Notes: generated by a model from the sequence alone, not told the origin. Positions 13,843 through 34,139 are shown, numbered from the stretch's first letter. The stretch: 42,690 bases of DNA from Candidatus Pacearchaeota archaeon (GCA_017609405.1 JAFCDZ010000006.1:1-42690); one strand, 5' to 3'. Translations and numbers: made by a program.

Positions 13843-15540
13843 TTAAGGTAAAGGTCTTCTTGGACCTGGACTAATTCTTTGTGGTGGAAAAGGAGGCCTT
13901 CTTCCAGGTGGTGGAGGGAAAGGCCCTCTTCTCATTGGAACCCCTTTCCCCTGTTTAAACCTCCTTCTATATATCCAAGCTTTAATTTTATTTCTGTAGA
14001 TTATTCCAATTACAACAAGAATAATTAAAATTACAAGCAAATAAATCCACCATTTAGAAGACTTTTTTTCTGGAGATGGTTGAACAGAAACTCTTTTACA
14101 ACATACATCATTTGCATCTAAACAAGAATAAGTTGTCTCAGTTTCATCATCTCTACAAACACCTCTACAAACACCTCCTTCTTGCTCACACTCAGAAACT
14201 TCTATTCTTGGATTACAGGTTCCATGCAAACAACAAACCTCTCCAGACCGAAGATCAGAAGTTGTTATTTTATCACCAGTGCAAACTTCATTAGAATTAC
14301 AAATTAAGCCTCCTCTATCTGAGCAAGTATCTTGAGCAGGCTGTTTATCACAACATACAAGAGGATAGAAGCAATGATAATTAATAGTATTCCCTCCTGC
14401 TTCACTACATGCGCTATTTGAAACACAATAATATCCTTCAGATTCGCAATCTAATTGAGTATGCTCATTGTTATCAAAGTCTCTTGGCCAAACAGAACTA
14501 AGGATAAAAGCAGTATTTACAACATCATTATCCCAACAACCATTAGGGCTTTGCTTCTCAAGTAACCATTCTTTTGCAGAATCTTTTTCTGATAAAGTAT
14601 CATAAAAAAGAGAATTTAATGCAAGAGCAGTGTCAAAGAACCTATCTCCAGAAACCTCCCAGTATTTGCCAACTCTTTGTAAATTAAGAAGCTCTTGCCT
14701 AAACTCAGCATCTTGTGTAAGTGAATATATTATAGAGTATGGAAGTTCTTTTTGATTATTTTTTGCTTCCATCTTTAGGTATGGTAAAAAGGGTTTAATA
14801 TCTTCGCCAAGCGAATCAAGAGCATAAGCAGCCCATAAAGTTCCTGCGTAATCACAAGAGCTCCCTTGTTTTAGACAAAAAAGGTTTATTTTCTCTTTTG
14901 TTTTTCCACCTGCTGAAGCAGAATTAACTTCCTCTGGAATATAAATAATTGGTGAATTTTCTTTTTGATATAGTAAATTAGTTGTAAAATCTGAATCACA
15001 AGTTATTTCAAATTCTTGATTATAGCAAGAAGGAGATATTTTAATCCAATATCCATTTGAAGAAACACTAAAACATCTTCCAAGATCCCCAACAATTTTT
15101 TTGTCTTCATTAATTAAAAAAGCTCTTCCAGAGATTTTACACGTGGTCTTATTTCTTGAATCTACCTGAATATACCAAATTAGATTATTCGGAATTACCT
15201 TTTGGGATAACAACCATTGTTTTGTTTTTTCAACAGACCCTCCTGCTTTTTTTAGAGCTAACATTGCCTGAGCAGTTGTCTTGATATTGCATCTTAGTTT
15301 TGGAAAACATCCTGAAGCATCCATCTGCGATTCAACATCATCAAAACATTTTCCTGTAGCAAGAAGAGAGAAAATTTGGGATTCTAATCCAAGAGAACTG
15401 CAATCCCCTATGAGATTATTTAAACAATCATAGGCTTTATCAATTCTATCCTGTTCAGAAAGATTTCCCAAATCAATTGCTAAAATTTGATTAAATAAAA
15501 ATAAAGTAATTACCACCATAAACAGCGCTCTTTTTATCAT
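13843..15540 (-). CDS. secreted Cys-rich protein with prenyltransferase/terpene-cyclase-like alpha-helical repeats, TM and Pro/Arg-rich tail
   Basis: Signal peptide; TTAQAMLALKKAGGSVEKTKQWLLSQ, DTALALNSLFYDTLSEKDSAKEWLLEKQSPNGCWDNDVVNTAFILSSVWP; Cys-rich domains; TM; tail RRGPFPPPPGRRPPFPPQRISPGPRRPLP. Confidence 0.7.
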   Translation of the reverse strand: MIKRALFMVVITLFLFNQILAIDLGNLSEQDRIDKAYDCLNNLIGDCSSLGLESQIFSLLATGKCFDDVESQMDASGCFPKLRCNIKTTAQAMLALKKAGGSVEKTKQWLLSQKVIPNNLIWYIQVDSRNKTTCKISGRAFLINEDKKIVGDLGRCFSVSSNGYWIKISPSCYNQEFEITCDSDFTTNLLYQKENSPIIYIPEEVNSASAGGKTKEKINLFCLKQGSSCDYAGTLWAAYALDSLGEDIKPFLPYLKMEAKNNQKELPYSIIYSLTQDAEFRQELLNLQRVGKYWEVSGDRFFDTALALNSLFYDTLSEKDSAKEWLLEKQSPNGCWDNDVVNTAFILSSVWPRDFDNNEHTQLDCESEGYYCVSNSACSEAGGNTINYHCFYPLVCCDKQPAQDTCSDRGGLICNSNEVCTGDKITTSDLRSGEVCCLHGTCNPRIEVSECEQEGGVCRGVCRDDETETTYSCLDANDVCCKRVSVQPSPEKKSSKWWIYLLVILIILVVIGIIYRNKIKAWIYRRRFKQGKGVPMRRGPFPPPPGRRPPFPPQRISPGPRRPLP

Positions 15541-16956: not shown

Positions 16957-17682
16957 ATGAAAGCAAAATTAGACAATCCAAAAATATTATCTAATGCAAT
17001 AGATATAATCTCTGAATTAGTTACTGAAGTAAAAATAGAGATAAATGAATTTGGATTAAGTATTGTAGCAATGGACCCTTCAAGGGCATCTATGGTAAGC
17101 TTTAAAATTCCTGCAAGTTCTTTTTCAATTCTTGAAGCAGATTCAGAATCTTTAGGGGTTAATTTAGATGATTTAAAAAAGATATTGAGAAGAGCCTCAA
17201 ACGCAAGTTCAATTATCCTTGAAAGAATTGAAAATGATTTAAAAATTACAATTGAAGACAAGATATTAAGAGAATTCTCATTAAATTTATTAGATATTGA
17301 AGGAGAAGAAACAAAACCAAGAGATTTGGAATACAGCGCTCATGTAGAGATAAACTCTTCTGATTTAAATGATTCAATTGAAGATTGTGCAATTGTTGCA
17401 GATGCTTGCTCATTTATAATTGAGGATGGAAAATTCATTATTGAAGCAAAAGGTTTGAATTCTGCTCGCTCTGAATTCTCTGGAGATGAAGCAAAAATAG
17501 AAGGAGAAAATTGTAAATCAAGATATGGATTAGAATATCTCCAAAAATTTATGAAAGGCTCAAAAATATCTGATAAAGCTCTATTGAGTTTTGCAAATTC
17601 TCATCCATTAAAAATAGATTTTAAAAACCCCCAAGCAGAATTAAGTTTTCTTCTTGCCCCTCGTGCTGAAGCAGAAGATTAA
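16957..17682 (+). CDS. pcn: DNA polymerase sliding clamp (PCNA)
   Basis: MKAKLDNPKILSNAIDIISELVTEVKIEINEFGLSIVAMDPSRASMVSFKIP...ISDKALLSFANSHPLKIDF. Confidence 0.96.
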   Translation: MKAKLDNPKILSNAIDIISELVTEVKIEINEFGLSIVAMDPSRASMVSFKIPASSFSILEADSESLGVNLDDLKKILRRASNASSIILERIENDLKITIEDKILREFSLNLLDIEGEETKPRDLEYSAHVEINSSDLNDSIEDCAIVADACSFIIEDGKFIIEAKGLNSARSEFSGDEAKIEGENCKSRYGLEYLQKFMKGSKISDKALLSFANSHPLKIDFKNPQAELSFLLAPRAEAED

Positions 17683-17707: not shown

Positions 17708-18490
17708 ATGAATAAAAAAAGAGGGCAAGCAAGTTTATTTGTTCTTGGAGGGATTATTTTAGTTGGTTTAATAATTTTATTTCTAATCTCAAGAAACATA
17801 GAGATAAAACAAACTCCAAAAATACAAGGAAAAGATATACATTCAAAACTTCAGTATTGTATTGAACCAAAACTAAAAGAGATAATAAAAACAATAGGAG
17901 AACGAGGAGGTTCTGTAAATCCTGAATTATATATAAAATTTCAATTTGAGGAGGAAAAAGAACCGCACAATATAAGTTTTTTATGTTATAATAATCTATA
18001 TTACTATCCATGCATAAACCAAAACCCTCTTTTAATAGAGCATGTAAAAAATGAAATAAAAAAAGAAGTAGAACCTGTTGTCAGAGAGTGTTTTGAAAAA
18101 ATAAAAGAGGATTATGAAAAAAAAGGTTATTCTTATTCAGGAAATAAAAATATTACCCTTTCTATAAATTTAAGTGAGGGAAAAGTAATCTTAGATATAA
18201 AAAATAATATCTTGTTAAAAAGAGAGAACAAGACAATTGAAAAAAAAGAGTTTAGGTTGTTTTTTGATGATTATATTTATGATTTAATGATTTTAGCACA
18301 AGAGATTGTTAATCAAGAAGCTGACTATTGTGATTCTTATTATGCTGAGCTCTCAATATTAAACCCTCAAATAGACATATCAAAATTTAGAACTAGTGAT
18401 TTAAATATAATCTATACCTTAAGATATATTAAAAATAATGAAACTTTCAGATTTGCTGTAAGGGGGTGTGTTATACCGCCAGGAATATGA
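17708..18490 (+). CDS. membrane-anchored protein with pilin-like N-terminus (module A small subunit)
   Basis: KKRGQASLFVLGGIILVGLIILFLI; homologous to 23336-24115 (CIEPKLKEIIKTIGERGGSVNPELY / CIREDLEKAIEKVSLQGGSLNPEHY). Confidence 0.75.
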   Translation: MNKKRGQASLFVLGGIILVGLIILFLISRNIEIKQTPKIQGKDIHSKLQYCIEPKLKEIIKTIGERGGSVNPELYIKFQFEEEKEPHNISFLCYNNLYYYPCINQNPLLIEHVKNEIKKEVEPVVRECFEKIKEDYEKKGYSYSGNKNITLSINLSEGKVILDIKNNILLKRENKTIEKKEFRLFFDDYIYDLMILAQEIVNQEADYCDSYYAELSILNPQIDISKFRTSDLNIIYTLRYIKNNETFRFAVRGCVIPPGI

Positions 18491-21400
18491 AAATAAAAAG
18501 CTTTTTTGTGTTTTTGGAGGTTTTTCTAATATTAAGTTTTAGTATTTCTACAAGTTACCTAATTGGACAATCTTTTCCACAAACAAGAACAGATTCTTTT
18601 AATGATGTAAGATGGATTTTGGAAAATTTAGGAGAATTCTTGAAAATAAAACAAATTAGCAGTGTTTCTGCATATGAGAATATTTGGAAATGTTGTCCTG
18701 AGACAAAATATGGCGCAAGATGTGTGGATATACCTGAATCTGCAAGAGATTCTTGTAAAATAAATTTATTAGATGTTTCTTGTAAAGAAAGTGATATTTG
18801 TGCGATTGGTTGTTGTATTGACCCTTTTGAAAAAACATGTACATCAAGAGCAACAAAACAGCAGTGTTTATTAAACGGAGGAATTTGGAAGCCAGAAGAA
18901 AATTGCAGAATTCCAGAATGTAAAAAAGGTTGTTGTGTTTTAGGAAATGATGTAGAGTTCACAACAAAACAAAGGTGTGAGAAACTATCTGAAGAAAAAG
19001 GTTTTATCTTTGATTTCAGAGCATATCAAACAGAAGATATGTGTCTTTTTTTAAAGAATAATTTAACAGAAGGGGCTTGTATACTAAATGGTGCTTGTAG
19101 ATTAGAAACAAAAACAGAATGTATTGGAAAAAACGGTACATTTTATGAAAACATGCTCTGCTCTAATCCTTCTTTGAATACATCTTGTAAAAAGCAGGCA
19201 TATATTGGATGTGTTGAAGGTAAAGATGAAATATATTGGTTTGATTCTTGTGGAAATAGAGAGAATATCTATTCTGCAGATAAAAATTTGAGCTGGAACA
19301 ATGGATATTTGCTTTCAAAATACAAGAGTTGTAATATCTTATCAAATAATGCTGGTTCAGAAAACTGTGGAAATTGCGATTCATTAAGAGGAAGTATTTG
19401 CTCAAAAACATCTCCTGATGAGAAACATGTTAAAGATGGGAATTATATTTGTAAAAGCTTAAAGTGTATTGATGAAAATGGAAAAGAAAGAGAAAATGGA
19501 GAGAGTTGGTGCGTCTATGATGGATATATTGGAGATGGAAAAGATGTTGTAGGCTCAAGACACTGGAGAAGAATTTGTGTGAATGGCCATATAAAGACAG
19601 AACCTTGTGCAGATTACCGAGGGCAGATTTGCGCCCAGTCAATTATAAAAAATAACCAAACAGGTAAAGAATTCTCACAAGCAAGGTGTGTTTCAAATGA
19701 AGCAATAAAGTGCCTGGCATATAATGAAAATATGGAAACAATGCCTGGAAAATGTCTCAATAACTCTCATTGTATTTTAAAGGAAATAAAAGTAAGTGAT
19801 GGATTTAAATTCAAATTATGCACTTCAAAATATCCAAGGGGTTTTGACCTAACTGGAAAAAGAAGAGATAAAGATAGAGGTATTTGTAGTTTAGCAAATC
19901 AAAAATGTATAGTAGTTTATCAAAAAAAATTAAGTGGTTGGAAATGTATACAGAATTGTGAATGTGAAACAAAAAAATTCTTTGAGCAAATGAATGATTT
20001 ATGTATCTCTCTTGGTGATTGTGGTAGCTATGTAAATATTCTTGGAGAAGGAAGTAATAATGTTGTTGTAACAAATTCTCCTAAAGGCTCGTGGGAAGAA
20101 TATAAAAAATATGCAACACCTGTTCCAGGACAATATGTCTCTTTTAAGAACTTGACTGAGTTTCTCAACTTATATGGTTTAAGGCTTTCAAAACCTTCTG
20201 GTCCTGAGGGCCTTCCCCCTCCTGCTTTGACTGGAGCAATAAAGACTATTGGAGAGATTTCAGGAGGTGTTGTAAGTTTAATGGCTGGTTTATCCTTTGG
20301 TGGGGAGTTTTTATCTGCTCTTGAAGGAGGGGCAAGTTTATTTAGCGCTATATCTAAAGGATTTGTAGAAGGAATGAATCTTGTTCATAATGTTCCTGCT
20401 TGGGGAATATTTGGAACAACAGGTTTAATGCTTGCTGTTGCTTCATTATCAAATATGATTTTTAAATTGCAAGGAGATGCTGCAACAGTAGTAAATGCAG
20501 TGGCATTAACTTTATCTCTCTACTCAATAAGTGCAGGAATTGCTAACACATATTTTGGAGCAAGTTGGGCAGTGTTAAACCCCTTTCTTGGAGCAGCAAT
20601 AATTCTTGCTTTTGCACTAACAATGAAAATGCTTGGTGTTGGGGAAACAAAAAAAATAATTGTAAAATTTGAGTGTCATCCTTGGGAGGCTCCTGTTGGG
20701 GGAGATAATTGTGAAAAATGTAATGAAGACCCTCTGAAACCTTGTTCAGAATATAGGTGCACCTCTCTCGGACAAGCATGCGGGTTAATTAATCCTTATA
20801 AAGAAAATCCAGAATGTAAGAAAGTATTTCCAGATGATGGAAAACCACCTCTTGTTAATTTTAGTGTCATGAGAGGATACTTAATCAACAAAAACAGTAG
20901 TTATGAATATATAATAAACAAAGAAGATGGCAGTTGTATACCTGAATTTACTCCAATAATTATTAATTTAACAACAAATAAATTTTCACAATGTAAATGG
21001 GATTTCAAAAGAAAAGAAAATTCTGAGGATATGGATTATTATGTTTCTGGAGATAATGGTTTCTTGAAAAACCACATAATAACATTATTCGCGCCAAGTT
21101 TGGAAAGTGTAAATGTATATAACATTTCTGGAAATTTCATAGATAAACAAGGAAGAACTCAAATTTTCATAAGATGTCAAGACAGATATGGAAATTATAA
21201 TATCAAAGAATATTCTTTAAGATATTGTGTGAGAAACGGCCCTGACTCAACCCCTCCGATTTTATTTAAAACTTCCCCAGAGAATAACACAATCCTTCCA
21301 ACCAATAAAGAAGAAATTAATCTTTCTATATGGTTAAATGAACCTGCGGAGTGTAAATTTAGTTCAAGAGATAAAAATTATTCAGAAATGGAAGGTCTAA

Positions 21401-22137
21401 TGAATTGTTCAACAGGATTAGAAATGTTAGATGAATTTGGCTGGAGGTGTTCTGCAAAATTAAGCACACCTGAAAAAGAGAACAAATTTTATATTAGATG
21501 CAGAGACAAACCATGGTTAGGAGAGAATAGCACAAGAAACATAAACCAACAACCTTTTGTTTATGTTATAAGAAAAACTGAAAATCCTCTAAAAATTGAT
21601 TATATTAGTTTATCAGATAATAGTACAATAACTCTTGGACCTGAAAAAGAGCCAATTGATTTAGAAGTAAGGACAAAAGGAGGAATAAATAATGGAGAAT
21701 CTGTTTGTTTATACGGATTTAAAAAAGATGGTGAATCAATATTAATGTCTGGAGAAATAAATCATCATGCAAGAGTTTCATTCCCTTTTGAAACAAAGTA
21801 TATTATTTACATAAAGTGTGTAGATAGTGTCGGAAATATTGCAAAAGAAAATAGGGCAGTTCATATTAAAATTGACTCAAAACCTCCTGAAATTATTAGG
21901 ATATTCAAAGAAGGAGCAAACATAAAATTCCAAACAAATGAACCTGCAAAATGTTATGTAAATGAAAAATATTGCTATTTTGATTTATCAAAAACAAAAC
22001 CCTTATCTGAATTTTTCCTAAAAACACATTATATTGAGTTTGATAATAAAAAGACATATTACATTAAGTGTAAAGATGCTTTTGAAAATGAAAATCCTTC
22101 GTGCGCTGTAATAATAAATCCTGAAGAGCTTGAATAA
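18487..22137 (+). CDS. giant secreted Cys-rich protein (module A, fused form)
   Basis: ATGA overlap with the upstream stop; N-terminal hydrophobic segment; repeated CC motifs; internal hydrophobic region; C-terminal TPP..NEPAEC repeats. Confidence 0.8.
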   Translation: MKIKSFFVFLEVFLILSFSISTSYLIGQSFPQTRTDSFNDVRWILENLGEFLKIKQISSVSAYENIWKCCPETKYGARCVDIPESARDSCKINLLDVSCKESDICAIGCCIDPFEKTCTSRATKQQCLLNGGIWKPEENCRIPECKKGCCVLGNDVEFTTKQRCEKLSEEKGFIFDFRAYQTEDMCLFLKNNLTEGACILNGACRLETKTECIGKNGTFYENMLCSNPSLNTSCKKQAYIGCVEGKDEIYWFDSCGNRENIYSADKNLSWNNGYLLSKYKSCNILSNNAGSENCGNCDSLRGSICSKTSPDEKHVKDGNYICKSLKCIDENGKERENGESWCVYDGYIGDGKDVVGSRHWRRICVNGHIKTEPCADYRGQICAQSIIKNNQTGKEFSQARCVSNEAIKCLAYNENMETMPGKCLNNSHCILKEIKVSDGFKFKLCTSKYPRGFDLTGKRRDKDRGICSLANQKCIVVYQKKLSGWKCIQNCECETKKFFEQMNDLCISLGDCGSYVNILGEGSNNVVVTNSPKGSWEEYKKYATPVPGQYVSFKNLTEFLNLYGLRLSKPSGPEGLPPPALTGAIKTIGEISGGVVSLMAGLSFGGEFLSALEGGASLFSAISKGFVEGMNLVHNVPAWGIFGTTGLMLAVASLSNMIFKLQGDAATVVNAVALTLSLYSISAGIANTYFGASWAVLNPFLGAAIILAFALTMKMLGVGETKKIIVKFECHPWEAPVGGDNCEKCNEDPLKPCSEYRCTSLGQACGLINPYKENPECKKVFPDDGKPPLVNFSVMRGYLINKNSSYEYIINKEDGSCIPEFTPIIINLTTNKFSQCKWDFKRKENSEDMDYYVSGDNGFLKNHIITLFAPSLESVNVYNISGNFIDKQGRTQIFIRCQDRYGNYNIKEYSLRYCVRNGPDSTPPILFKTSPENNTILPTNKEEINLSIWLNEPAECKFSSRDKNYSEMEGLMNCSTGLEMLDEFGWRCSAKLSTPEKENKFYIRCRDKPWLGENSTRNINQQPFVYVIRKTENPLKIDYISLSDNSTITLGPEKEPIDLEVRTKGGINNGESVCLYGFKKDGESILMSGEINHHARVSFPFETKYIIYIKCVDSVGNIAKENRAVHIKIDSKPPEIIRIFKEGANIKFQTNEPAKCYVNEKYCYFDLSKTKPLSEFFLKTHYIEFDNKKTYYIKCKDAFENENPSCAVIINPEELE

Positions 22138-22190
22138 AATATCTTCAAAAATACAACAAAATATATAAATTTTTGAAAAGTTTTATTAGA

Positions 22191-23291
22191 ATGAGTCTTC
22201 AGAATAAGATTCTTAAGATTAGTAGAAGAATTATTCCAACATTAGCTCTTGGATGTTCTTTAGGATTCCTAAACGGATGCGCTTCTGATGATGCTGATTT
22301 GCTTTTGATGACTATGGGTGCAATGGCTCCGTTTAATGAAAATCTCTCTCCACTTGAACAAGCATTATGGTCGGGAATTGGGCAAGCAGCAAAAGCAGAT
22401 TATGAGAGACAAGCAAGAATAGATGCTGCAAAAGTTGGAAAAACAGAAGTAAATGTTAATATTAACAGAGAATCAAAAGATAGCCAAACCAGTGGAGAGT
22501 ATGTAACAGAACAAAGAACTTCAAGAACAATCTTTGTATTCACACATAATCAAACATTCAATGATGATAATGAAAATGGGGTGATTGAATTCAATGAGCT
22601 ACGTGGAAAAAATAAAAAAGAATATTTAATTGGCCTTGAAGGATTTGGAATTGGATTTAGAGATATTGATTCCCCGGGAATAGGAAGAGTAGAAATGTAC
22701 AATGGGTATGGTGATTTAATTTGGAATGAAACATTCCAATATAAAAGAGGTCAAAAAGTTTTTCTAATTGGTATGGATGAAGACCAAACAGGATTTATAG
22801 ATAAAACAAAAAGATTAGAGGGAGAGCATCTTCTAAGAATTTTTTCAAGGAGAATTAATAGTAGGAAAGATGAACTTGTAAGGGAATTAAGAGTGAAATT
22901 TAGGGATTTTAGAGGAAAGTTATTGGTTTTTAGTGATTATGTTGGTAATCTAAAAAAGGAGGGCTTTATACTTGAAAAATTTAAAGGTGTTGGAAAAAGG
23001 TCTTTTAATTTGGAAAAAGAATCTATATGTATAATTTGGGGAAAAAGAAATGCTTTAGATCGAGTTAGAGTAGAGATTATCTCTCCAGAAGGTAAAAAAA
23101 TTGCTGATAGATATGCTGGAGATGTATATTGCTGGGGATATTTTCCTAATAAAAAAGAATCTCCAGACACTTTTTTGAGAGGATTGATAAGATGTGGTTC
23201 TGGAACATATCATATAAGAGTTGTTGATAGAAAAGGATATGTCTTAGAAGATACACCTTTAGAAATAACAGCCCCTCCATTAAGGAAGTAA
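22191..23291 (+). CDS. putative lipoprotein with an EF-hand-like loop
   Basis: Lipobox-like LGFLNGC; loop DDNENGVIEFNE fits the EF-hand consensus; start ATG 22191 preferred over 22173. Confidence 0.65.
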   Translation: MSLQNKILKISRRIIPTLALGCSLGFLNGCASDDADLLLMTMGAMAPFNENLSPLEQALWSGIGQAAKADYERQARIDAAKVGKTEVNVNINRESKDSQTSGEYVTEQRTSRTIFVFTHNQTFNDDNENGVIEFNELRGKNKKEYLIGLEGFGIGFRDIDSPGIGRVEMYNGYGDLIWNETFQYKRGQKVFLIGMDEDQTGFIDKTKRLEGEHLLRIFSRRINSRKDELVRELRVKFRDFRGKLLVFSDYVGNLKKEGFILEKFKGVGKRSFNLEKESICIIWGKRNALDRVRVEIISPEGKKIADRYAGDVYCWGYFPNKKESPDTFLRGLIRCGSGTYHIRVVDRKGYVLEDTPLEITAPPLRK

Positions 23292-23335
23292 AAATAATAA
23301 AAAAGATTTATAAATAAGGGATTCATTTAGAGAAT

Positions 23336-24115
23336 ATGGTTATTGGGAAAAAAAGAGGTCAAATAACTTTATTTGTGATAATTGCTTTAATCATTATTGG
23401 ACTTGCTATTTTATTCTATTTATTTTATCCAAAGATAAAATCTTTTGCTGGATTTTCTTCTGAAAACCCTTCAGACATCTTAGACAGGTGTATTAGAGAG
23501 GATTTAGAAAAGGCAATAGAAAAAGTTTCTTTACAAGGAGGTTCATTAAATCCAGAGCATTACTATTTATTTAATGGGAGTAAACTTGATTACTTATGTT
23601 ATAGTTCTGAATATTATAAAACATGTGTTGTTCAGAAACCACTTCTTCTAAGAGAGGTTGAAAAAGAATTAAAAAAAGCTCTTGATAAAAAAGCAAGACA
23701 ATGTGTTAGTGAATTAAAAGAAAAATACACAAAAAAAGGATATTCTGTAAAAATAGAGAACGAAAGTTTTAACTTGTTAATCTATCCTGGAAAAATTATT
23801 TTGAGTTTTGGTGATAAACTCACTTTGAAGAAAAACGAAGAAACAAAAAGGTATAATAAAATAGATGTTATAATAAACAATAATCTTTATGAACTTTTAG
23901 ATGTTGCTACTGATATAATTAAATGGGAAACTCAGCTTGGAGATTCAGAATCAACTTATGAAATGTCAAAATACAGAGGAATAAAAGTAGAAAAGAAAAA
24001 ACAAGAGGATGGGACAACAGTATACATACTCACCCATAGGGAGAGTGGAGATAAATTCCAATTTGCAAGCAGAAGTTTAGCATGGCCTCCTGGATATGGG
24101 GCGACATTATATTAA
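23336..24115 (+). CDS. membrane-anchored protein with pilin-like N-terminus (module B small subunit)
   Basis: KKRGQITLFVIIALIIIGLAILFYLF; homolog of 17708-18490. Confidence 0.75.
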   Translation: MVIGKKRGQITLFVIIALIIIGLAILFYLFYPKIKSFAGFSSENPSDILDRCIREDLEKAIEKVSLQGGSLNPEHYYLFNGSKLDYLCYSSEYYKTCVVQKPLLLREVEKELKKALDKKARQCVSELKEKYTKKGYSVKIENESFNLLIYPGKIILSFGDKLTLKKNEETKRYNKIDVIINNNLYELLDVATDIIKWETQLGDSESTYEMSKYRGIKVEKKKQEDGTTVYILTHRESGDKFQFASRSLAWPPGYGATLY

Positions 24116-24116
24116 A

Positions 24117-25667
24117 ATGAAAAAAATAAGCATATTAGTGACGTTGTTATTGATAGTAAGTGTTTTAGTTCGAATTAGTGCATTAGATACTGGAGGGGTT
24201 TCATACTGTTGTGAAAGAACAATTATAAAAGATGATGGAAGCGGAGGTGCTTGGTGTGTGAATGCTCCAGAACAAGAGTGCGACCCTCAATATAGAAAAG
24301 CTCCTGCATCATGTGAAGCAACATCTTATTGTAAAAAAGGATGCTGCTATGACAGCCAAGAAGGAATTTGTATGGAAAATACACCTATGAAAGTTTGCGA
24401 AGAGGCGGAGGGTGTGTGGAGTGATAGTCCAGATTGCGATATACCTCAATGTGAATTAGGTTGTTGTAGAATTGGAGACCAAGCTTCTTTTGTAACACTA
24501 ACAAAATGTAAAAGAATGGGTTATTTTTATGGAATTGATATTTTCTTTGATAAGAGTATAAAAAATGAGCTTCAATGCTTAATGAGTATTAATTCTCAGA
24601 AAAAAGGTGCTTGTGTTTATATGAAAAATTTTGAAAAAGATTGTAAAGTAACAACCCAGGAAGAATGTATGAAACTAAAACAAACCCTTGAAAATGTAAC
24701 ATTTCATCAAGAATTTTTATGTACTGCAGAAGACCTTGGAACAAAGTGTGTACCAACAGAGAAAACTACTTGTGTAGAGGGAAAAGACCAAGTTTATTTT
24801 GTAGATTCTTGCGGAAATATCTGTAATGTTTATGATGCAACAAAAATAAGAGATAAAGAATACTGGAGAAAAATAAAAGACCCCAGTGAAAGCTGTAATT
24901 ATGGACAAAGTAATGCAGGCTCTCCTTCTTGCGGAAATTGTGATTATTATCTCGGAAGTGTGTGTAAGAAATATGAGAGAAGTGATGGAAGAAGGCCAAG
25001 TTATGGAGATTATATTTGTAAAGATTTAAGCTGTGAATGGAATGGAAGAAAATACAAACATGGAGAAAGCTGGTGTGCAGTAAATCAAAAAAGAGTTCCA
25101 ATTATAACAACAGAAGATAATAAATTCTTTTCAATAAATGCTGTTGGTTCAAAATTCTTTAGATTAATCTGTTATGAAGGAGAAGTAACTGTTGAGCCAT
25201 GTGCAGAATATAGACAAGAAATCTGTAAAGAATCTTCTGTAAATGGATTCAAAACTGCTGCATGTATTGCTAATAAATGGCAGGATTGCACTGAGCAAGA
25301 CAATAGGAAGGATTGTGAAAATAGAGATGTAAGAGATTGTAAATGGATTGGAGGAAATAATAAGATAAAATGTGTTCCAATTGTTCCACCTGGATTAGAT
25401 TTCTGGAATCCTGATGGAGATGCTGAAAAAATATGCTCAAGTGCTACTGCAACATGTAAAATAACATGTCATGAGAAGTTCGGTGGAGATATGAAATGTG
25501 AGAGCGAGCCTGCTGGGTGTGGAAAAGATGATGATTTAGAATTAAATCCTGAATGGATTGAAAAAGTTGGTGAGATTTGTTTTTCAATGGGTGACTGCAG
25601 TAGTGAAGAGAAAGTAAAGACAAATTATATTGGAGATTTAGGCTTTTATGACGAGGAGGAAAAATGA
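24117..25667 (+). CDS. secreted Cys-rich protein (module B, N-terminal half)
   Basis: Homologous to the N-terminal half of 18487-22137: CVEGKDQVYFVDSCGN, GNCDYYLGSVC, GDYICKDLSC...HGESWC. Confidence 0.8.
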   Translation: MKKISILVTLLLIVSVLVRISALDTGGVSYCCERTIIKDDGSGGAWCVNAPEQECDPQYRKAPASCEATSYCKKGCCYDSQEGICMENTPMKVCEEAEGVWSDSPDCDIPQCELGCCRIGDQASFVTLTKCKRMGYFYGIDIFFDKSIKNELQCLMSINSQKKGACVYMKNFEKDCKVTTQEECMKLKQTLENVTFHQEFLCTAEDLGTKCVPTEKTTCVEGKDQVYFVDSCGNICNVYDATKIRDKEYWRKIKDPSESCNYGQSNAGSPSCGNCDYYLGSVCKKYERSDGRRPSYGDYICKDLSCEWNGRKYKHGESWCAVNQKRVPIITTEDNKFFSINAVGSKFFRLICYEGEVTVEPCAEYRQEICKESSVNGFKTAACIANKWQDCTEQDNRKDCENRDVRDCKWIGGNNKIKCVPIVPPGLDFWNPDGDAEKICSSATATCKITCHEKFGGDMKCESEPAGCGKDDDLELNPEWIEKVGEICFSMGDCSSEEKVKTNYIGDLGFYDEEEK

Positions 25668-27709
25668 TAAAACTAAATAATCTAAAAACAAGAAGAGCAA
25701 AGATTAGCCTATTTGAAAGCATGCTCCTTATTTTATCAGTTATTGCTTTTGCTTATATGCTTGGAGAGAGTATGAGGGAAGTGAGTGCAGGAGATGAATT
25801 TGTTGGGAGTATTGTAAAATGGTTATTTAAAAGAAGCAATTTTAAGGGGGGTTTCTTGGGGGATCCGGCAAAAGAGAAATTAAAGGAGTATGGTTTGACT
25901 GAGGAAAGCGCAGTTGGTTGGGGAGGATTCATGGGAGGATTAGCCCAATCCCTTGCTTGGGCTGGACTTGCTTATGGCCTTGCTAATATGGTTGGTGGAT
26001 TTTTTGGATTAGATAAAGGAGAAACAAAAGGAGTTTCACTATCTCTTGCAGCAGGGTTCGGTGTTTATAGGGGTGTTTATTTATTAAAAGAAAGGGGGTG
26101 GTGGTTCAAGTCGTGGACTTCTCAAGGATGGGGTGTGACAGCTGGAATAATCACTGCAGCAATTGTATTTTATTTCACTTATGAAAAAACAAAAACAAAA
26201 ACATTTACAATAGAATGTAAACCTTGGAGTCCTCCGACAGGGGGCGAGAATTGTGAGAAATGTAATAATCAAGAGCTTCCTTGCTCAGAATATCAGTGTA
26301 GAAGTCTTGGACAATCATGCCAATTATTAAACAAAGGAACTGGAAATGAAAAATGTGCTTGGGTTAATAGAAATGATGTAAAGCCACCAGTTATTACTCC
26401 TTGGGATGAGGTTCTATCAAGAGACCACGAATATACTCCGGATAATACAATTTCTCCACCAGATAGGGGGGTAAAAATTATTAACAAAAAGAGCAGTGAT
26501 GGTTGCTTAAAAGCATTTACCCCGATAATGTTTGGAATAAGAACAAATGAGCCTGCAATGTGTAGAATTGATTATATAAGAAAAGCCAATTTTAGTGATA
26601 TGGATTTCTATTTCGGAGGAACAAACCAATACTTATACAACCATACACAATTAATAAGCCTTCCAAGCCCTAATTCAAGTGCTGCTGAAGGAATTACATT
26701 AAGAAATAATGGAGACCTAAACCTTTATGTAAGGTGTATGGATGCTAACGGAAACACTAATCCTGCTAATTTTGTATTTAGAATGTGTGTAGAAAAAGGT
26801 CCTGACACAACCCCTCCAATCATAATTGCTACAAATCTAAGAAACAATATGCCTATTGCATTTAACAAAACAGAGCTTCCATTAACCCTTTATATAAATG
26901 AGCCAGCAGAATGTAGATGGAGTAGAACAGACCAAAATTATGAAGATATGGAACATGATATGACTTGTGCAACAAGCGTGACAGAAATAAATGCTCAAAT
27001 GACTTATGAATGTAAAACAATCTTAAGAGGAATAGAAAATGGAAAAGATAATAATTTCTACTTCAGATGTAAAGATAAACCTCACAACCCTGAAAATGAA
27101 AGAAACACAAACACTCAATCTTTTAAATTCACAATTAAGGGAACACAGCCATTAGTAATAAAAGAGGTTGGACCAAATGAAACAATAAAAGGTGCAGCAT
27201 CTCCTGTAAAAGTAATATTAACTGCTGAGACTATTGGAGGATATCAAAATGGAAAAGCAACATGCTACTATAAAAATACAAACAGCACAATGCAATATGT
27301 TGCATTTTTACACACAAATTCAAATACACACTCTCAAGAGTTATACTTCCCAGCAGGAAGACACACATACTCTATTAAGTGTATTGATTTGGGAGGAAAC
27401 AGTGATGTTAAAAACACAACATTTTATGTTGATGTAGATGTAGTTCCCCCAGAGATTGTTAGGGTAACAAAGAGTTCAGACCAATTAATTATCATGACAA
27501 ATGAAGAAGCAAGATGTGTTTATAGCACAAGAGATTGCAATTATGAATTTGAACAAGGAACAGAAATGACAACAACTGATAAGATTACACATACTACAAC
27601 ATGGAACCAAGCAAATACTTATTATATTAAGTGTAAAGACAATTATGGAAATATTCCTTATACTGGCTATTGCACAATGATAGTTAAGCCAACTAACGAG
27701 GATTATTAA
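25664..27709 (+). CDS. secreted/membrane Cys-containing Ig-like repeat protein (module B, C-terminal half)
   Basis: ATGA overlap with the previous gene; homologous to the C-terminal half of 18487-22137: FTIECKPWSPPTGGENCEKCNNQELPCSEYQCRSLGQSC; NEPAECRWSRTDQNYEDMEHDMTC. Confidence 0.8.
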   Translation: MIKLNNLKTRRAKISLFESMLLILSVIAFAYMLGESMREVSAGDEFVGSIVKWLFKRSNFKGGFLGDPAKEKLKEYGLTEESAVGWGGFMGGLAQSLAWAGLAYGLANMVGGFFGLDKGETKGVSLSLAAGFGVYRGVYLLKERGWWFKSWTSQGWGVTAGIITAAIVFYFTYEKTKTKTFTIECKPWSPPTGGENCEKCNNQELPCSEYQCRSLGQSCQLLNKGTGNEKCAWVNRNDVKPPVITPWDEVLSRDHEYTPDNTISPPDRGVKIINKKSSDGCLKAFTPIMFGIRTNEPAMCRIDYIRKANFSDMDFYFGGTNQYLYNHTQLISLPSPNSSAAEGITLRNNGDLNLYVRCMDANGNTNPANFVFRMCVEKGPDTTPPIIIATNLRNNMPIAFNKTELPLTLYINEPAECRWSRTDQNYEDMEHDMTCATSVTEINAQMTYECKTILRGIENGKDNNFYFRCKDKPHNPENERNTNTQSFKFTIKGTQPLVIKEVGPNETIKGAASPVKVILTAETIGGYQNGKATCYYKNTNSTMQYVAFLHTNSNTHSQELYFPAGRHTYSIKCIDLGGNSDVKNTTFYVDVDVVPPEIVRVTKSSDQLIIMTNEEARCVYSTRDCNYEFEQGTEMTTTDKITHTTTWNQANTYYIKCKDNYGNIPYTGYCTMIVKPTNEDY

Positions 27710-27747
27710 ATAAGAAAATTTAAAAGAAAGAAAAACATCTTATTTTT

Positions 27748-28236
27748 ATGAAAAGAGGTCAGATGAAGTTATCTTTTGGGATGATTTTTTCAATTATGCT
27801 AATTATTGTATTTATTGGATTTGCGATTTATATTATTGCTAACTTAATCAGCTTCCAAAAAAATCTTACAACAAACAGCTTTTTTAAAAATTTTCAAGAA
27901 GATGTGGACTCTATGTGGAGAGGTGCAGAAGGAAGCACAATAATTAAATATTCACTGCCATCAAAAGCTGAAAAAGTCTGTTTTGTTGACTTTTCTTCCC
28001 CCCCAAAAAATAATAGAGATTTATATTATGAGTTACAGCTTTTCTCAAGTGGAGAAAAGAATCTTTTTGTATACCCAATTTCAGAAACAGAAGGCAGTCC
28101 TGGAAGAAAAATAAACCATCTTAATATAGCAGAAATAACAAAGATAAAAAACCCTTATTGTATTGAAGTAGAAAACGGAAAGGTTGAAATAGAGATTATA
28201 AAAGAGTTTGGTGAAGAACTAGTAAAGATAAAATGA
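27748..28236 (+). CDS. pilin-like small membrane protein
   Basis: MKRGQMKLSFGMIFSIMLIIVFIGFAIYIIANLI. Confidence 0.65.
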   Translation: MKRGQMKLSFGMIFSIMLIIVFIGFAIYIIANLISFQKNLTTNSFFKNFQEDVDSMWRGAEGSTIIKYSLPSKAEKVCFVDFSSPPKNNRDLYYELQLFSSGEKNLFVYPISETEGSPGRKINHLNIAEITKIKNPYCIEVENGKVEIEIIKEFGEELVKIK

Positions 28237-29153
28237 AAAGAGGTTTTTTAGACATATCTTTTGGAGTATTATTTGCAATAATTGTAGGAGTCATTATTTT
28301 GTTTTTTGCAATTTATACCTCTTCAAAAATAATTCGGAGTGGTGAGCACACAATAAACACTGAAACAGCAAAAAGGCTCGGGGTTTTAACAAACCCTCTT
28401 GAAACAGGTTTTGAAAGTGCTGAAAAAAATAAGATTGTTTTGGATGCTGAAACAAGAATTTACAATATATGTGATGAATCAGGAAACTTTGGAGAGCAAA
28501 AAATAGCAATATCACAAAAGAGTTTTGGAAAATGGGGGGATACAGGAGCAAATATTATTTTTAAAAATAAGTATTTCTTTTCTGAAGGAATAATTGAAGG
28601 AAAAGAATTTTATTTATTTTCAAAGCCATTTAAAATGCCATTTAAAGTTGCTGATTTGATTATAATAATACCCAAAAACAAAGAATATTGTTTTATTGAT
28701 GCACCAAGAGAAATTGCAGAAGAATTAAATGCTCTTGAAATTGAGAACATCCATACAGAAAACTGTTCAGGTGATGAAATAAAGGTTTGTTTTTCTATTT
28801 CTTCTGGTTGTGATATAATTGTAAATCTAAATGCTAATTATGTTCAAAAAAGAGGTTCTGTAGTTAATTTTATTGGTGATGCTCTTATGTATGGAGCTAT
28901 TTTTTCAGATAAGGATGTTTATGAATGCCAAATAAAAAGACTTATGAAAAGAATCTCAGAATTAGCAAAAGTTTATATTACAAAAGAGGGAATTATATCA
29001 AAAAGAGATTGTAACAGCAATTTAAATAAAGAATTAACAGAATTATCAACAAAAGCAAGAGAATTAGAGAATTCAGGAGAATTATTCTTTATTGATGACC
29101 TTGCAAAGAAAATTGATAGTATTGAAAGGAGCGCAAGTTGTAGATTATGGTAA
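28233..29153 (+). CDS. pilin-like membrane protein
   Basis: ATGA overlap; MKRGFLDISFGVLFAIIVGVIILFFAIYTSSKII. Confidence 0.65.
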   Translation: MKRGFLDISFGVLFAIIVGVIILFFAIYTSSKIIRSGEHTINTETAKRLGVLTNPLETGFESAEKNKIVLDAETRIYNICDESGNFGEQKIAISQKSFGKWGDTGANIIFKNKYFFSEGIIEGKEFYLFSKPFKMPFKVADLIIIIPKNKEYCFIDAPREIAEELNALEIENIHTENCSGDEIKVCFSISSGCDIIVNLNANYVQKRGSVVNFIGDALMYGAIFSDKDVYECQIKRLMKRISELAKVYITKEGIISKRDCNSNLNKELTELSTKARELENSGELFFIDDLAKKIDSIERSASCRLW

Positions 29154-29662
29154 AAGGACAAATAAAAATACAACAAATGGCAATTGTTCTTGTGGCTATT
29201 GTTTTGTTGTTTGTTATAGTTGGTTTATTTTTTACAGGTTTTGGTATAAATTACCTAAGGAAGTCTGCAACAAATATTGAAGAAAAAAATGCCAAGCTTC
29301 TGGTTGCTAAATTATCAGATACCCCTGAATTCTCATGCGGAGAGAGTTTTGGAACTGGAAAAGTATATTGCGTTGATTTTGATAAAGCAATGGCTCTTTC
29401 TCTGATTGAGGATTATTCTGATTTCTGGGGTGTTGCAGAGATAAAAATAAGAAAAATATACCCAAAAGAAAAGGAGAAGATTTGTAATATTGAAAATTAT
29501 CCTGATTGCAACACATTAATTGTATTTTCTGATAAGAATGTTAAAAAAGGTCCAATGCAATTTAATTATATTATTTTATGCAGAAAAGAATCTTATGGAG
29601 GAAAAAGTTATGATAAATGCGAAATTGGAGAGTTGCTTGTTGCAGGAGTGGTAAAAAAATGA
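29147..29662 (+). CDS. pilin-like small membrane protein
   Basis: MVKGQIKIQQMAIVLVAIVLLFVIVGLFFTGFG; overlaps the upstream gene by 7 nt. Confidence 0.65.
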   Translation: MVKGQIKIQQMAIVLVAIVLLFVIVGLFFTGFGINYLRKSATNIEEKNAKLLVAKLSDTPEFSCGESFGTGKVYCVDFDKAMALSLIEDYSDFWGVAEIKIRKIYPKEKEKICNIENYPDCNTLIVFSDKNVKKGPMQFNYIILCRKESYGGKSYDKCEIGELLVAGVVKK

Positions 29663-30138
29663 AGAGGGCTCAAGAAGAGATGGTCGGATTTGTATTAATA
29701 TTTATTATAATTTCAATAGTTGCTCTCTTTGCAATTGGTTTCCTAATAAACAAAGGAAGTGGAGAAAAAGAAGACAAAGATTATTCTACAATGTCTTTAT
29801 TGAACGCAATATTACAATATAGTACAGATTGTGCGAATCTTTATGAGCCAAATTATTATTCGGTGAGGGGATTAATTAGTGCTTGCGAAGAGGAAAAAAA
29901 GTGTTTAGATGGGAGAAAAAGCTGTGAAGTATTGAAAAATGTGATAAGTGACATATTAAATAAAACAATTATAATTGGAAATGAAAGTAGATACAAAGGA
30001 TATGAATTTAAGATGTTTTCAGAAAATTCTAAGAAAATAGAGATTATTTCAGGTAAAAAAACAAAAAATTATGCTGGAGCACTTGAGATATTAAGTGGAA
30101 ATGAAAAAATTACAATAATTCTTAGAATCTATTACTAA
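29659..30138 (+). CDS. pilin-like small membrane protein
   Basis: MKRAQEEMVGFVLIFIIISIVALFAIGFLIN; ATGA overlap; start 29659 preferred over 29617. Confidence 0.65.
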   Translation: MKRAQEEMVGFVLIFIIISIVALFAIGFLINKGSGEKEDKDYSTMSLLNAILQYSTDCANLYEPNYYSVRGLISACEEEKKCLDGRKSCEVLKNVISDILNKTIIIGNESRYKGYEFKMFSENSKKIEIISGKKTKNYAGALEILSGNEKITIILRIYY

Positions 30139-30494
30139 ATATTTATGTGAATTGTAACTGATGTTGTTGAAATAACAGGTTTGTGTCTTATCCTATTATT
30201 ATGTTTTTCTTCAATTAGATCAATAAACCCAAATCTTTCAAGTAATTTAACATCATCAAGAACTGCTTTAAAGTTTCTTCCAAGAATCTTTGCAAGTTCA
30301 TAAAGGGATTCTGGTTTATTGTTTTTAATTACACAAAGCATTCTTGCTTTTTCATTGGTTAAAAGATTTCTTAATGCTGCCAAACCTGAAAAATCATAAT
30401 CTTCTTTTGAATCTTTTTTTGATTTCACAAATGAAAAAGTTCCTTTTGACTCTTTTATAGTTATTTCACGAACCTTTGTCTTTGCCATTTTCAT
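30135..30494 (-). CDS. winged-HTH regulator, HVO_A0114-like family
   Basis: LAALRNLLTNEKARMLCVIKNNKPESLYELAKILGRNFKAVLDDVKLLERFGFIDL; start possibly 30485. Confidence 0.75.
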   Translation of the reverse strand: MKMAKTKVREITIKESKGTFSFVKSKKDSKEDYDFSGLAALRNLLTNEKARMLCVIKNNKPESLYELAKILGRNFKAVLDDVKLLERFGFIDLIEEKHNNRIRHKPVISTTSVTIHINI

Positions 30495-30710: not shown

Positions 30711-30824
30711 TTTTTAAATAAAGATGGATTGGTAATATTGCGCGTAAGCGCAGGAGAAACCTAAATGGTTGTCATTGACAACATGGTCAATAGAGGTGAA
30801 AGGAGGTATAAGGAAAAAAGAAAA
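30711..30824 (+). promoter_or_regulatory. S-layer gene promoter and structured 5' leader
   Basis: TATA-like TTTTTAAATA 30711-30720; hairpin TGCGC-GTAA-GCGCA 30739-30752; hairpin GTTGTC-ATT-GACAAC 30768-30782; SD GGAGGT 30802-30807. Confidence 0.6.
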
Positions 30825-33242
30825 ATGAAATTTAGAAAGATACTAGCTGTTTTAGGTAGTGCTGTACTTGTTGGTTCATCTATGGGTTTTGCTGCTGCTG
30901 CAAACTATCCTGCTCCTTTCAATGAAGGAAAGGTTGCAGTTGTTTATGGTAGCAATGCAGCAGGCTCAGATATTGCTCAAGCTGCAAACATATTTGCAGG
31001 ATTGAATAAATTATCAACAAGTACAAGTGCGACAACTAGTGCTAGTGTCAGTGGTGAAGCATATGTCTTACAAAAGACATCTACAAAGTTCCACTTAGGA
31101 GACTATGTTGGTGATGTTGTTTCAACAAAAATAACTGATGATGATTTACCAACACTTCTTGCTGACGGAACTTATGTAGATGATGACAATGATGAATTTG
31201 ACTACAGTCAAGAGATAAACTTGTACAACTCATCATTAAGGCTTGAGATGTTTGAAGATAATGACTACAAGCCTGATGAGCCAACAGTTGGTATAAAAAT
31301 AGACAATGGAGACGGTATCCTTAACTATACATTAGACTTCAGTGATGAACCATACTGGTCTGATTTAGCTACAACAGACTTCCCATTATTAGGAAAAGAA
31401 TACTATGTATTAAGTACTTCAAACAACAATTCAATGACTCTCCTTGACTCTGCTGCTGATGCAATAGTTGTTCAAGATGAATCTCAAACAATAACTGTTA
31501 ATGGAAACAGTTATGAGGTTAGCATTGAGTTTATTGGAAGCAGTGATGTGAAATTAAATGTAAATGGAGAGGTTACAAACAGTTTATCTGAAGGAGAAAC
31601 TTACAAGTTAAGTGATGGCTCTTATGTAGGTGTTAAGGATATAATGTACACCTCAAAAGATGGAGAATCAAGTAAAGTAGAAATAAGTATTGGTTCAGGT
31701 AAGCTTGTCTTGACTAATGGTCAAGATGTTGAGCTTAATGAAGACACCATCTCTGGATTAGTAGCTTACCTTGGAAATAACGGAGGTAAATTGTCTAATG
31801 TTACATTATCATGGGAAGCTGATGATGATTTATTCATCACAGAAGATAGCTCAATAACTCTTCCAGGATTTGGAAGTATTAAAATGAGCTTTGGTGGTAT
31901 GGTCTATCCAGCTCAAGAATCAATCAAGATTGAAGCTGGAGGAGATGACTATGCACAATTAAAAGACTTCCCATTAAAAGATACAACATCAAGTATTAAC
32001 TTCCTATACTTTAATGGAAGTGCTTATACTGCTGTTGGAAAAGATGCTAGTGAAAACTTATTAAGAACAAGTGGAACAAATAGCATCACATTTTATGGAG
32101 ACACAGACAGTTACTTCATTGCTTCATGGACTGATGGAAATGATGCAGAGTCTTACTTGATGAGAGCTACTGACTTCAAGAATGATAGTGGTACAATAAG
32201 GTGTGATATCCAGTACATGAAAGATGGTAGCTGGGTAACAAAGAAAGATGGTGCTGAGAATGGTGACACAGTAAGTCTTGGAAATGTTGACCTTAACATA
32301 GGTGCAATAAATAAGGCTGATAAAACTGTAGTCATAGCTGCTGGAAACAATAATGTTGATTTCCACACACTTTACTCTGCTGAAGGTATGAAAGTATACC
32401 TTCCATGGGTGAATACAACAGATGTTACTGTAGCAGACAACAGTTCAACATGTAATAGTGTTTATGGTACATTAGGTGTTGGACAATTAGGTTATGATGC
32501 CACATTAACACTGCAAAATGGAACACAATTTAATTGTACTTACTATCCATCTACTTATAGCCTTATCTTCTCAGAAGAAGATAAGGATGGAAACATAGGG
32601 GATGGTGCAAACATTACTGTTACTCTTGGAGATGACAGTAATGATGAAGTTAGTGTTACAGGTGTTTCTCCATCAGTAGGTGGAAGTTCAACAGAGATAG
32701 ACGACTCTGATGTATACAGAAACTTTGCTTACTCTGACCTAGCTACTGAAATTAAGTGGGACAAAGGTCCAGACCAACAAAAAGCAGAGCTTATCTACCA
32801 CGGTGACGAGTCTTATGGACTTGTCTACATTGGTGCAGAAGATGCATCTGTTGCAGGTGGTAGTAGCTCTTCAAGCACAGCAACATCAACTGTTGATGTA
32901 GAATTAATCAAAGACAGTGAGGTTAGCTCTTACTCTGACAGAAACCTCATTGTTGTTGGTGGTAGCTGTGTTAACAGTGTAGCTGCTAATTTGCTTGGTG
33001 GAAGCTTCTGTGGTGAAGAATTCACAAGCAAGACAGGTGTTGGTGTTGGACAGTACTTAATCCAGAGCTTTGGAGACGCTTACACAGAAGGCAAAATTGC
33101 ATTACTTGTTGCTGGTTATGAAGCTGGCGACACTGTAAATGCAGTTAAATACCTTCTTAACAACAACGTTGACACAAGCGCTGGAAAGAAGTACATTGGT
33201 TCCACTGCAACAAGTGCTCAAGCAGTAGTTACTAGTGCATAA
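30825..33242 (+). CDS. S-layer protein
   Basis: Signal peptide MKFRKILAVLGSAVLVGSSMGFAAA; NYPAPFNEGKVAVVYGSNAAGSDIAQAANI; C-terminal NLIVVGGSCVNSVAANLLGG...YTEGKIALLVAGYEAGDTVNAVKYL. Confidence 0.9.
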   Translation: MKFRKILAVLGSAVLVGSSMGFAAAANYPAPFNEGKVAVVYGSNAAGSDIAQAANIFAGLNKLSTSTSATTSASVSGEAYVLQKTSTKFHLGDYVGDVVSTKITDDDLPTLLADGTYVDDDNDEFDYSQEINLYNSSLRLEMFEDNDYKPDEPTVGIKIDNGDGILNYTLDFSDEPYWSDLATTDFPLLGKEYYVLSTSNNNSMTLLDSAADAIVVQDESQTITVNGNSYEVSIEFIGSSDVKLNVNGEVTNSLSEGETYKLSDGSYVGVKDIMYTSKDGESSKVEISIGSGKLVLTNGQDVELNEDTISGLVAYLGNNGGKLSNVTLSWEADDDLFITEDSSITLPGFGSIKMSFGGMVYPAQESIKIEAGGDDYAQLKDFPLKDTTSSINFLYFNGSAYTAVGKDASENLLRTSGTNSITFYGDTDSYFIASWTDGNDAESYLMRATDFKNDSGTIRCDIQYMKDGSWVTKKDGAENGDTVSLGNVDLNIGAINKADKTVVIAAGNNNVDFHTLYSAEGMKVYLPWVNTTDVTVADNSSTCNSVYGTLGVGQLGYDATLTLQNGTQFNCTYYPSTYSLIFSEEDKDGNIGDGANITVTLGDDSNDEVSVTGVSPSVGGSSTEIDDSDVYRNFAYSDLATEIKWDKGPDQQKAELIYHGDESYGLVYIGAEDASVAGGSSSSSTATSTVDVELIKDSEVSSYSDRNLIVVGGSCVNSVAANLLGGSFCGEEFTSKTGVGVGQYLIQSFGDAYTEGKIALLVAGYEAGDTVNAVKYLLNNNVDTSAGKKYIGSTATSAQAVVTSA

Positions 33243-33282: not shown

Positions 33283-33543
33283 TTTTTAATTCAATGCTTG
33301 ATATACTTATATTAAGATTATTTCTTGTTAATATTTGATTTAGGGATTATAAAAGAGTTAATTGGAAATATTTATAGCAAGGTTCGGCATTCTCAGAAAA
33401 GATGAGGAATTATCCAAAATCTCGTTTTAACTATTTGCCAAAATTCTATTTATTAACTCTTGAGATTTCAATAAACCCTTTTTATTTTTCAATATGGCTT
33501 CTAAGAGAGTAATCTTTTTATAATCTTGTTTTGTTTTTTAGTT

Positions 33544-34110
33544 ATGAGAAAAATAATGACAAGAGCAGAAAAAGAAAGAATAAGAAAAAAAAGAGAGTTA
33601 ATTGTTGGGGTTGTTCTTACTGCTGTTTTATTATTAAGTACATTTGGTTATGCTTTTATGAATAATAAAGGGGCTTCTACAAGGATAATTAATTATAATG
33701 GATTCAAATTTCAAAAACAAGATATCTTTTGGGTATTAAATATCAATAACCTTAATTTTTATTTTAAATATCTTCCAGATGAGAATATTAAAATCAATAT
33801 AACAAAAAAAATAAGTGACTATTATCAAAAACCATTATATATCTATTCTGAAGAAGAAGGGCTTGAGAAAGAAATATATCAAAACCTAATAAATATTGCT
33901 CAGAGAATTCAACCTGCATGCCCAGAAAATGAAAGCGATTGTAATCCAGAATATCCGATTAAAGATTGCACTCAAAATTTTATAATTATAAAGGAAGGTA
34001 ATGGAAGTGTTGAAGAAGAGAATAATTGTGTAATAATATATTACCAAGACAAAGAAGATGCTCTTAAAAAAATAGATCTTGTTTTATTTAAGATTTTAGG
34101 CATAGAATAA
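33544..34110 (+). CDS. membrane-anchored hypothetical protein
   Basis: N-terminal basic region plus TM LIVGVVLTAVLLLSTFGYAFM; Cys-containing ectodomain. Confidence 0.6.
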   Translation: MRKIMTRAEKERIRKKRELIVGVVLTAVLLLSTFGYAFMNNKGASTRIINYNGFKFQKQDIFWVLNINNLNFYFKYLPDENIKINITKKISDYYQKPLYIYSEEEGLEKEIYQNLINIAQRIQPACPENESDCNPEYPIKDCTQNFIIIKEGNGSVEEENNCVIIYYQDKEDALKKIDLVLFKILGIE

Positions 34111-34139
34111 TTTTTAAATTAAGATATATTTAATAAAGA

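Follow-up and report, generated by a model that had tools for sequence, protein, structure and literature searches.

On balance, we favor the reading that a run of ten genes in a genome of Candidatus Pacearchaeota encodes a giant adhesin complex which is anchored by pilin-type signals at the S-layer. The computed basis for this reading comprises a specific N-terminal motif, the pairing, fusion, and co-duplication of a protein family termed P with giant Cys-rich proteins, conserved gene order, the topology of fused forms, pilus machinery encoded elsewhere in the genome, and adhesin-like β-sandwich domains. From these features we infer prepilin cleavage, assembly by the pilus machinery of the genome, adhesion, and a partner cell, and the block is a strong candidate for the machinery by which these probably host-dependent cells grip other cells. 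An earlier description of the cluster was not found in the open-licence literature, and subscription journals may hold one.

A Ten-Gene Locus With Conserved Order

The analyzed window is one whole contig (G000:C12; 42,690 nucleotides) of a 740-kb genome that is 87% complete. ORF calling, with starts refined by eye, places ten genes on its plus strand between positions 17708 and 30138 (o1 to o10; Table 1). The initial annotation had described ten co-oriented genes with several ATGA overlaps; all ten ORFs are present and such overlaps exist at four junctions (o1/o2, o5/o6, o7/o8, and o9/o10), and o8 and o9 overlap by 7 bases. Two homologous modules exist among the ten genes, each consisting of a P protein (o1 or o4) and a giant Cys-rich protein. 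The ten genes are flanked by the presumed PCNA gene on one side and by an S-layer gene on the other, and the HTH gene at their end is a candidate regulator.

Table 1. Genes of the locus and neighboring features in the window.
Feature	Position	Strand	Description
uA	12581-13804	-	secreted protein; conserved neighbor of uB
uB	13843-15540	-	secreted Cys-rich protein with C-terminal membrane helix
PCNA (presumed)	16957-17682		named by conserved order
o1	17708-18490	+	P-family protein of module A (260 aa); pilin-type signal KKRGQ-ASLF; globular ectodomain after a single N-terminal helix
o2	18487-22137	+	Cys-rich giant of 1216 aa (NC); composed of an N-terminal helix, a Cys-rich ectodomain, a hydrophobic region of low confidence, and a β-rich, Ig-like C-terminal ectodomain
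o3	22173-23291	+	lipoprotein-like protein with EF hand; variable component of the locus
o4	23336-24115	+	P-family protein of module B (259 aa); signal KKRGQ-ITLF; AlphaFold2 pLDDT 92
o5	24117-25667	+	N half of second giant; Cys-rich ectodomain (8.9% Cys); own secretory signal
o6	25664-27709	+	C half of second giant; helix at the N terminus, hydrophobic stretch rich in Gly, motif CEKCN-CSEYxC, Ig-like domains
o7	27748-28236	+	small pilin-signal protein (KRGQMKLSFGMIF); one helix; N-terminal part homologous to o8
o8	28233-29153	+	pilin-signal-like protein (KRGFLDISFG); one helix; 306 aa
o9	29147-29662	+	small pilin-signal protein (KGQIKIQQM); one helix
o10	29659-30138	+	small pilin-signal protein (KRAQEEMVGF); one helix
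HTH gene (HVO_A0114 family)	30135-30494	-	conserved, convergent, between o10 and S-layer gene
S-layer protein gene (PF05124 S_layer_C)	30765-33242	+	conserved downstream neighbor
x33, x34	33526-34727		pair of small membrane proteins; conserved immediately behind the S-layer gene in about 25 loci

Against Pfam and NCBIfam, none of the ten proteins has a family match above cut-off, except for weak Ig-like matches in the giants. Weak single-member Pfam matches to HincII, GerPC, CoV_NSP4_N, and YxzE were dismissed, being scattered and either below cut-off or implausible. A search of genome contigs with o6 alone gave no match; with an alignment of o6 and o2 as query, relatives were retrieved and the named ones belong almost all to Candidatus Pacearchaeota or Nanoarchaeota, now phylum Nanobdellota, in line with the assignment of the stretch to a DPANN genome.

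The order P-giant-P-giant-o7-o8-o9-o10-HTH-S-layer recurs across loci L043 to L122, usually with short gaps, and in Pacearchaeota, where the block is seen in dozens of genomes, it is headed by PCNA. Each of the adjacencies o7-o8, o8-o9, and o9-o10 was encountered 42-44 times, and in 38 cases o10 precedes the S-layer gene. In other families of the class the block recurs in part (L134-L136 and L138), and genomes from such families (G081, G094, G111, and G201) show the order PCNA-P-giant-o7-o8, most of them also with o9, o10, and an S-layer gene. Synteny of the ten genes had been set beforehand as a test on which the initial proposal could fail, and it passed: the order is conserved among Pacearchaeota and, in part, further families of the class. 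Elsewhere in the order (L035, L036, L037, and L041, from other families), P and giant are located directly beside relatives of uB instead, and because of this adjacency uB and its neighbor uA probably belong to the same system.

Pilin-Type Signals at the Locus

Six proteins of the locus had been credited with pilin-like N-termini, and these are indeed found in o1, o4, and o7 (KRGQ), o8 (KRGF), o9 (KGQ), and o10 (KRAQ). When ORFs with an N-terminal helix from 80 related loci were scored for a [KR][GAS]Q that leads straight into the helix, the motif was present in 73 of 91 P proteins, 33/42 relatives of o9, 32/40 of o10, and 29/46 of o7 (63-80%), compared to none of the 103 remaining membrane ORFs in these loci; it was also encountered in none of the N, C, and S-layer proteins of related loci. 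Because of this difference, and because the gene order recurs in dozens of genomes, the features noted at the locus exceed chance. In most members of P, o7, o9, and o10, a charged residue at position -2 and G, A, or S at -1 directly precede the helix, as expected for class III signals. Members of the o8 family have Y, F, or A at +1; the Gln motif is present in only 7 of 45 and typically [KR][GA] is followed by Y, F, or A and then by L.

The archaeal prepilin rule fits the [KR][GAS]Q signals, and a Gln at +1 is conserved in EppA-type substrates (PMC4371748). An acidic residue at +5, a feature of a subset of archaeal pilins, predominates in none of the five families, in which this position is mostly occupied by F (P), S (o7 and o8), Q (o9), or V (o10). 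Of the class III or type IV pilin signals proposed in the initial annotation, the motif has stood in view of its specificity against the 103 background ORFs, whereas neither an acidic +5 nor a pilin fold for P was encountered.

The proteins o7 to o10 each possess one helix, and homology between o7 and o8 extends over roughly the first 80 residues. Among P and o7 to o10, no known pilin family is matched above cut-off in Pfam/NCBIfam; the o7 profile matches the pilin PilE1 weakly (E 0.017) and over the helix only, and one relative of o10 matches Pilin_N weakly (E 0.027). Matches of o10 to a DUF2073-like ORF beside P and giant in some relatives were discarded as profile drift, stricter inclusion having put o10 in its expected place.

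The Predicted Fold of P and Its Distribution

P proteins consist of one N-terminal helix, preceded by an invariant Gln after K(R/K)G, and an ectodomain, and display four nearly invariant Cys. A Foldseek comparison of the o4 model (pLDDT 92) with solved structures (PDB) and viral structures yielded low TM-scores only and no convincing match, and a profile search with P detected no convincing relative among known structures. The fold of P is, therefore, a confident prediction without a solved relative. A pilin-like structure was not borne out by prediction: when P alone was considered, the pilin fold (a long α1 on a β sheet) was not recognized, and the o4 model matches no solved pilin. Judging from the model, P may work as a pilin-signal anchor, and its fold does not support an identity as pilin.

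Relatives of P occur in 242 and relatives of o8 in 195 of the 285 genomes of the phylum. Although o8 was encountered without P in 1/195 genomes when read by hand, a functional linkage based on this co-occurrence is not pressed, because many of the genomes lacking P look more divergent, as inferred from weak scores of their platform proteins.

Giant Proteins and Their Coupling to P

The two homologous pairs of P and giant described initially were recovered, with o1 and o4 forming one family and o2 being homologous to o5 in its N part and to o6 in its C part, the second giant thus being split into two ATGA-joined genes. As many relatives likewise pair a one-piece first giant with a split second one, the split between o5 and o6 is natural. 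Cys residues amount to 5.4% of o2, 8.9% of o5, and 3.1% of o6, more than 35 of them being invariant among relatives in the N half of the giants, and a separate N-terminal hydrophobic segment is present in both o5 and o6. For o2, the model (pLDDT 82) predicts with confidence a Cys-rich ectodomain (model residues 44-545) and a β-rich C-terminal part (700-1197), and with low confidence a hydrophobic stretch at about 556-680; in most one-piece giants this Gly-rich hydrophobic region contains 2-4 candidate helices. Foldseek relates the o2 model, in its C-terminal ectodomain, loosely and with low TM-scores to Ig-, FnIII-, and cadherin-type ectodomains, including the bacterial adhesin GhpA and an ice-binding adhesin, and the Pfam Ig-like model Big_13 matches 12 of 18 giant relatives. 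The attachment apparatus considered initially is in agreement with these domains. PilY1 or DUF2341 domains were found neither in o2, o5, and o6 nor in their relatives, and an SLT domain is absent from o2, o5, and o6. For o3, the suggestion of an EF-hand lipoprotein holds in that it displays one canonical EF-hand loop (DDNENGVIEFNE) at residue 131, a second EF-like loop, and, by eye, a lipobox-like LNGC; fewer than half of the loci possess a relative of o3, which is mostly located between N and C.

In related Pacearchaeota loci, the gene after P encodes a giant in 90 of 92 cases. In the tree of P, those members that precede one-piece giants form a clade (34 rows, support 99) apart from most P of the second module, so that P and giant appear to have been duplicated together, as expected of cognate pairs. 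In several more distant genomes of other families, P and giant are even encoded by a single ORF, with P fused N-terminally to the giant (L130, L131, L132, L133, and L139). The sole membrane segment of six such fusions is the P helix with its pilin-type motif, the N-terminal helix and the hydrophobic region of the giant having been lost. As the P helix is the only membrane segment, the globular domain of P and both ectodomains of the giant must be located on the same side in the fused form, presumably outside, and P must adjoin the Cys-rich domain. This same-side topology of the fusions is the strongest mechanistic clue.

Other Partners of P

On the minus strand of another contig of the same genome (G000:C17), a 623-aa protein with an N-terminal P domain is encoded (L153:12325-14196) and its gene is overlapped by that for a 1698-aa giant (L153:7232-12328). 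Relatives possess the same pair in a similar gene neighborhood, with homologous giants. The giant of G119 (2282 aa) shows matches to SLT transglycosylases, and three other giants of this second system that were scanned, including the one from the genome studied here, gave no Pfam match. Large transglycosylase proteins are widespread in Pacearchaeota and Woesearchaeota, and attachment to bacterial walls has been proposed for them (Castelle and colleagues, PMC8204110). The second-system giants agree with those proteins in domain, size, and lineages, the features by which we liken them. P is, therefore, associated with two or more kinds of giant that are unrelated to each other. P-like proteins are also followed by other large ORFs (454-760 aa) at L141:6100-9158, L142:8687-11571, and L134:4476-6602, those of L141 and L142 being without family match, which suggests further types of P partners. 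Neither the second P-giant pair of the genome nor the split second giant, the P-giant fusions, and the S-layer gene and uA/uB travelling with the block had been part of the initial annotation.

Pilus Machinery Elsewhere in the Genome

No pilus ATPase or platform gene was recognized in the window, as had been stated initially, nor within or next to the locus in any of the genomes inspected. The genome-wide search for a prepilin peptidase and GspE/GspF-like genes, which had been recommended, was successful: the genome encodes one match to A24 prepilin peptidases (G000:C17:116203-116544), two T2SSE ATPase matches, T2SSF proteins, and a TadC-like protein, all of them on contigs other than that of the locus (C25 and C17). 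As the A24 family and TadC-like platforms occur in 275 and 278, respectively, of the 285 genomes of the phylum and are thus near universal, the presence of peptidase or type IV pilus machinery does not discriminate between readings. Two type IV pilus clusters exist in the genome, one on C25 (L023) and another on C17 (L024); the latter is located near the A24 peptidase and includes a 718-aa TadC-like protein and several pilin-like ORFs.

Discussion

In the favored adhesin complex, P and o7 to o10 would be made as prepilin-like precursors (o8 with less motif support) and the A24 peptidase would remove their short charged leader in front of the conserved Gln, so that a single hydrophobic helix remains. 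P would hold the N-terminal Cys-rich domain of its cognate giant outside, o7 to o10 might, in the manner of minor pilins, initiate the complex or carry it, and power would be provided in trans by the type IV pilus ATPase and platform of the genome. Such a complex would be located within or above the S-layer, the gene of which is adjacent, and would bind another cell or surface.

The main rival is a static, bindosome-like scaffold of the S-layer, in which class III signals would only insert P and o7 to o10 in the envelope and the giants would brace or decorate the S-layer instead of touching other cells. It would agree with the S-layer gene (PF05124) as constant downstream neighbor (38 loci with o10 followed by it), with a locus encoding no ATPase, and with the prepilin-like signals that bindosome subunits also use (PMC4371748). 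However, giants that act outward are suggested by the Ig-like adhesin domains and by the transglycosylase domains of a separate P-giant system, and some P-giant pairs are encoded away from an S-layer gene, so that we consider a scaffold possible but rather unlikely. An extension of the favored adhesin complex, in which the block constitutes all or part of the gene set for the host-attachment organelle of Nanobdellota, would combine P-anchored giants, o7 to o10, uA/uB, and the S-layer protein into an envelope-embedded contact machine, with the second P-giant pair, of the transglycosylase type, acting on the wall of the partner; we judge it decidedly unlikely.

Four co-directional genes with pilin signals also recall sets of minor pseudopilins, and with the 2-4 candidate helices in the Gly-rich hydrophobic region of most one-piece giants one might think of a secretion system, o7 to o10 forming a short pseudopilus and P and giant a gated export conduit for substrates not named. 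Yet the fused forms lack the hydrophobic region, so that a pore is not essential, and neither a conduit family among the ten proteins nor candidate substrates were found, which makes secretion very unlikely. That unrelated ordinary surface proteins with plain signal anchors are held together by genome compaction would suit a small, densely packed genome and families that are all without annotation; the absence of the motif from the 103 background ORFs, the co-duplication, and above all the fusions and an order conserved across families disfavor it already, and we regard it as most improbable.

No proteins have been named for the attachment structures seen by cryo-ET in DPANN archaea (PMC11420986). 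A conserved gene set is now named and testable, with P present in 242/285 genomes, almost always beside a giant in Pacearchaeota loci and elsewhere sometimes fused to it. If the favored reading is true, P would be a general device for mounting giant proteins on pilin-type anchors in Nanobdellota.

With archaeal type IV pilus systems, including their minor pilins and tip adhesins of the PilY1/DUF2341 type (Makarova 2016 census, PMC4858521), the locus shares several small proteins that bear prepilin-type signals, a gene for a large putative adhesin within the operon, the proximity of S-layer-like genes known from some pilus loci, and peptidase, ATPase, and platform in the genome, although no ATPase or TadC is encoded in the locus itself. 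In contrast to these systems, there is no match to a known pilin or to DUF2341, the fold of P is not a known pilin fold, an acidic +5 is missing, and the adhesin is fused to P or paired with it one-to-one. The bindosome of Sulfolobus, with class III signals on substrate-binding proteins, is another case of non-pilus use of such signals in the archaeal envelope, but none of the ten proteins matches a substrate-binding-protein family and the partners here are giant Cys-rich proteins. An attachment organelle was seen by cryo-ET in YN1, a member of the same phylum, and its protein composition was stated as unknown (PMC11420986); the analysis gave no link between the genes described here and that organelle. 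The lytic-transglycosylase giants of Pacearchaeota and Woesearchaeota (fam00969, PMC8204110) are likewise giant surface proteins from the same lineages. Although o2, o5, and o6 share neither BLAST similarity nor an SLT domain with them, one giant with transglycosylase domains, from a relative, comes right after a P-domain protein, just as o2 comes after o1.
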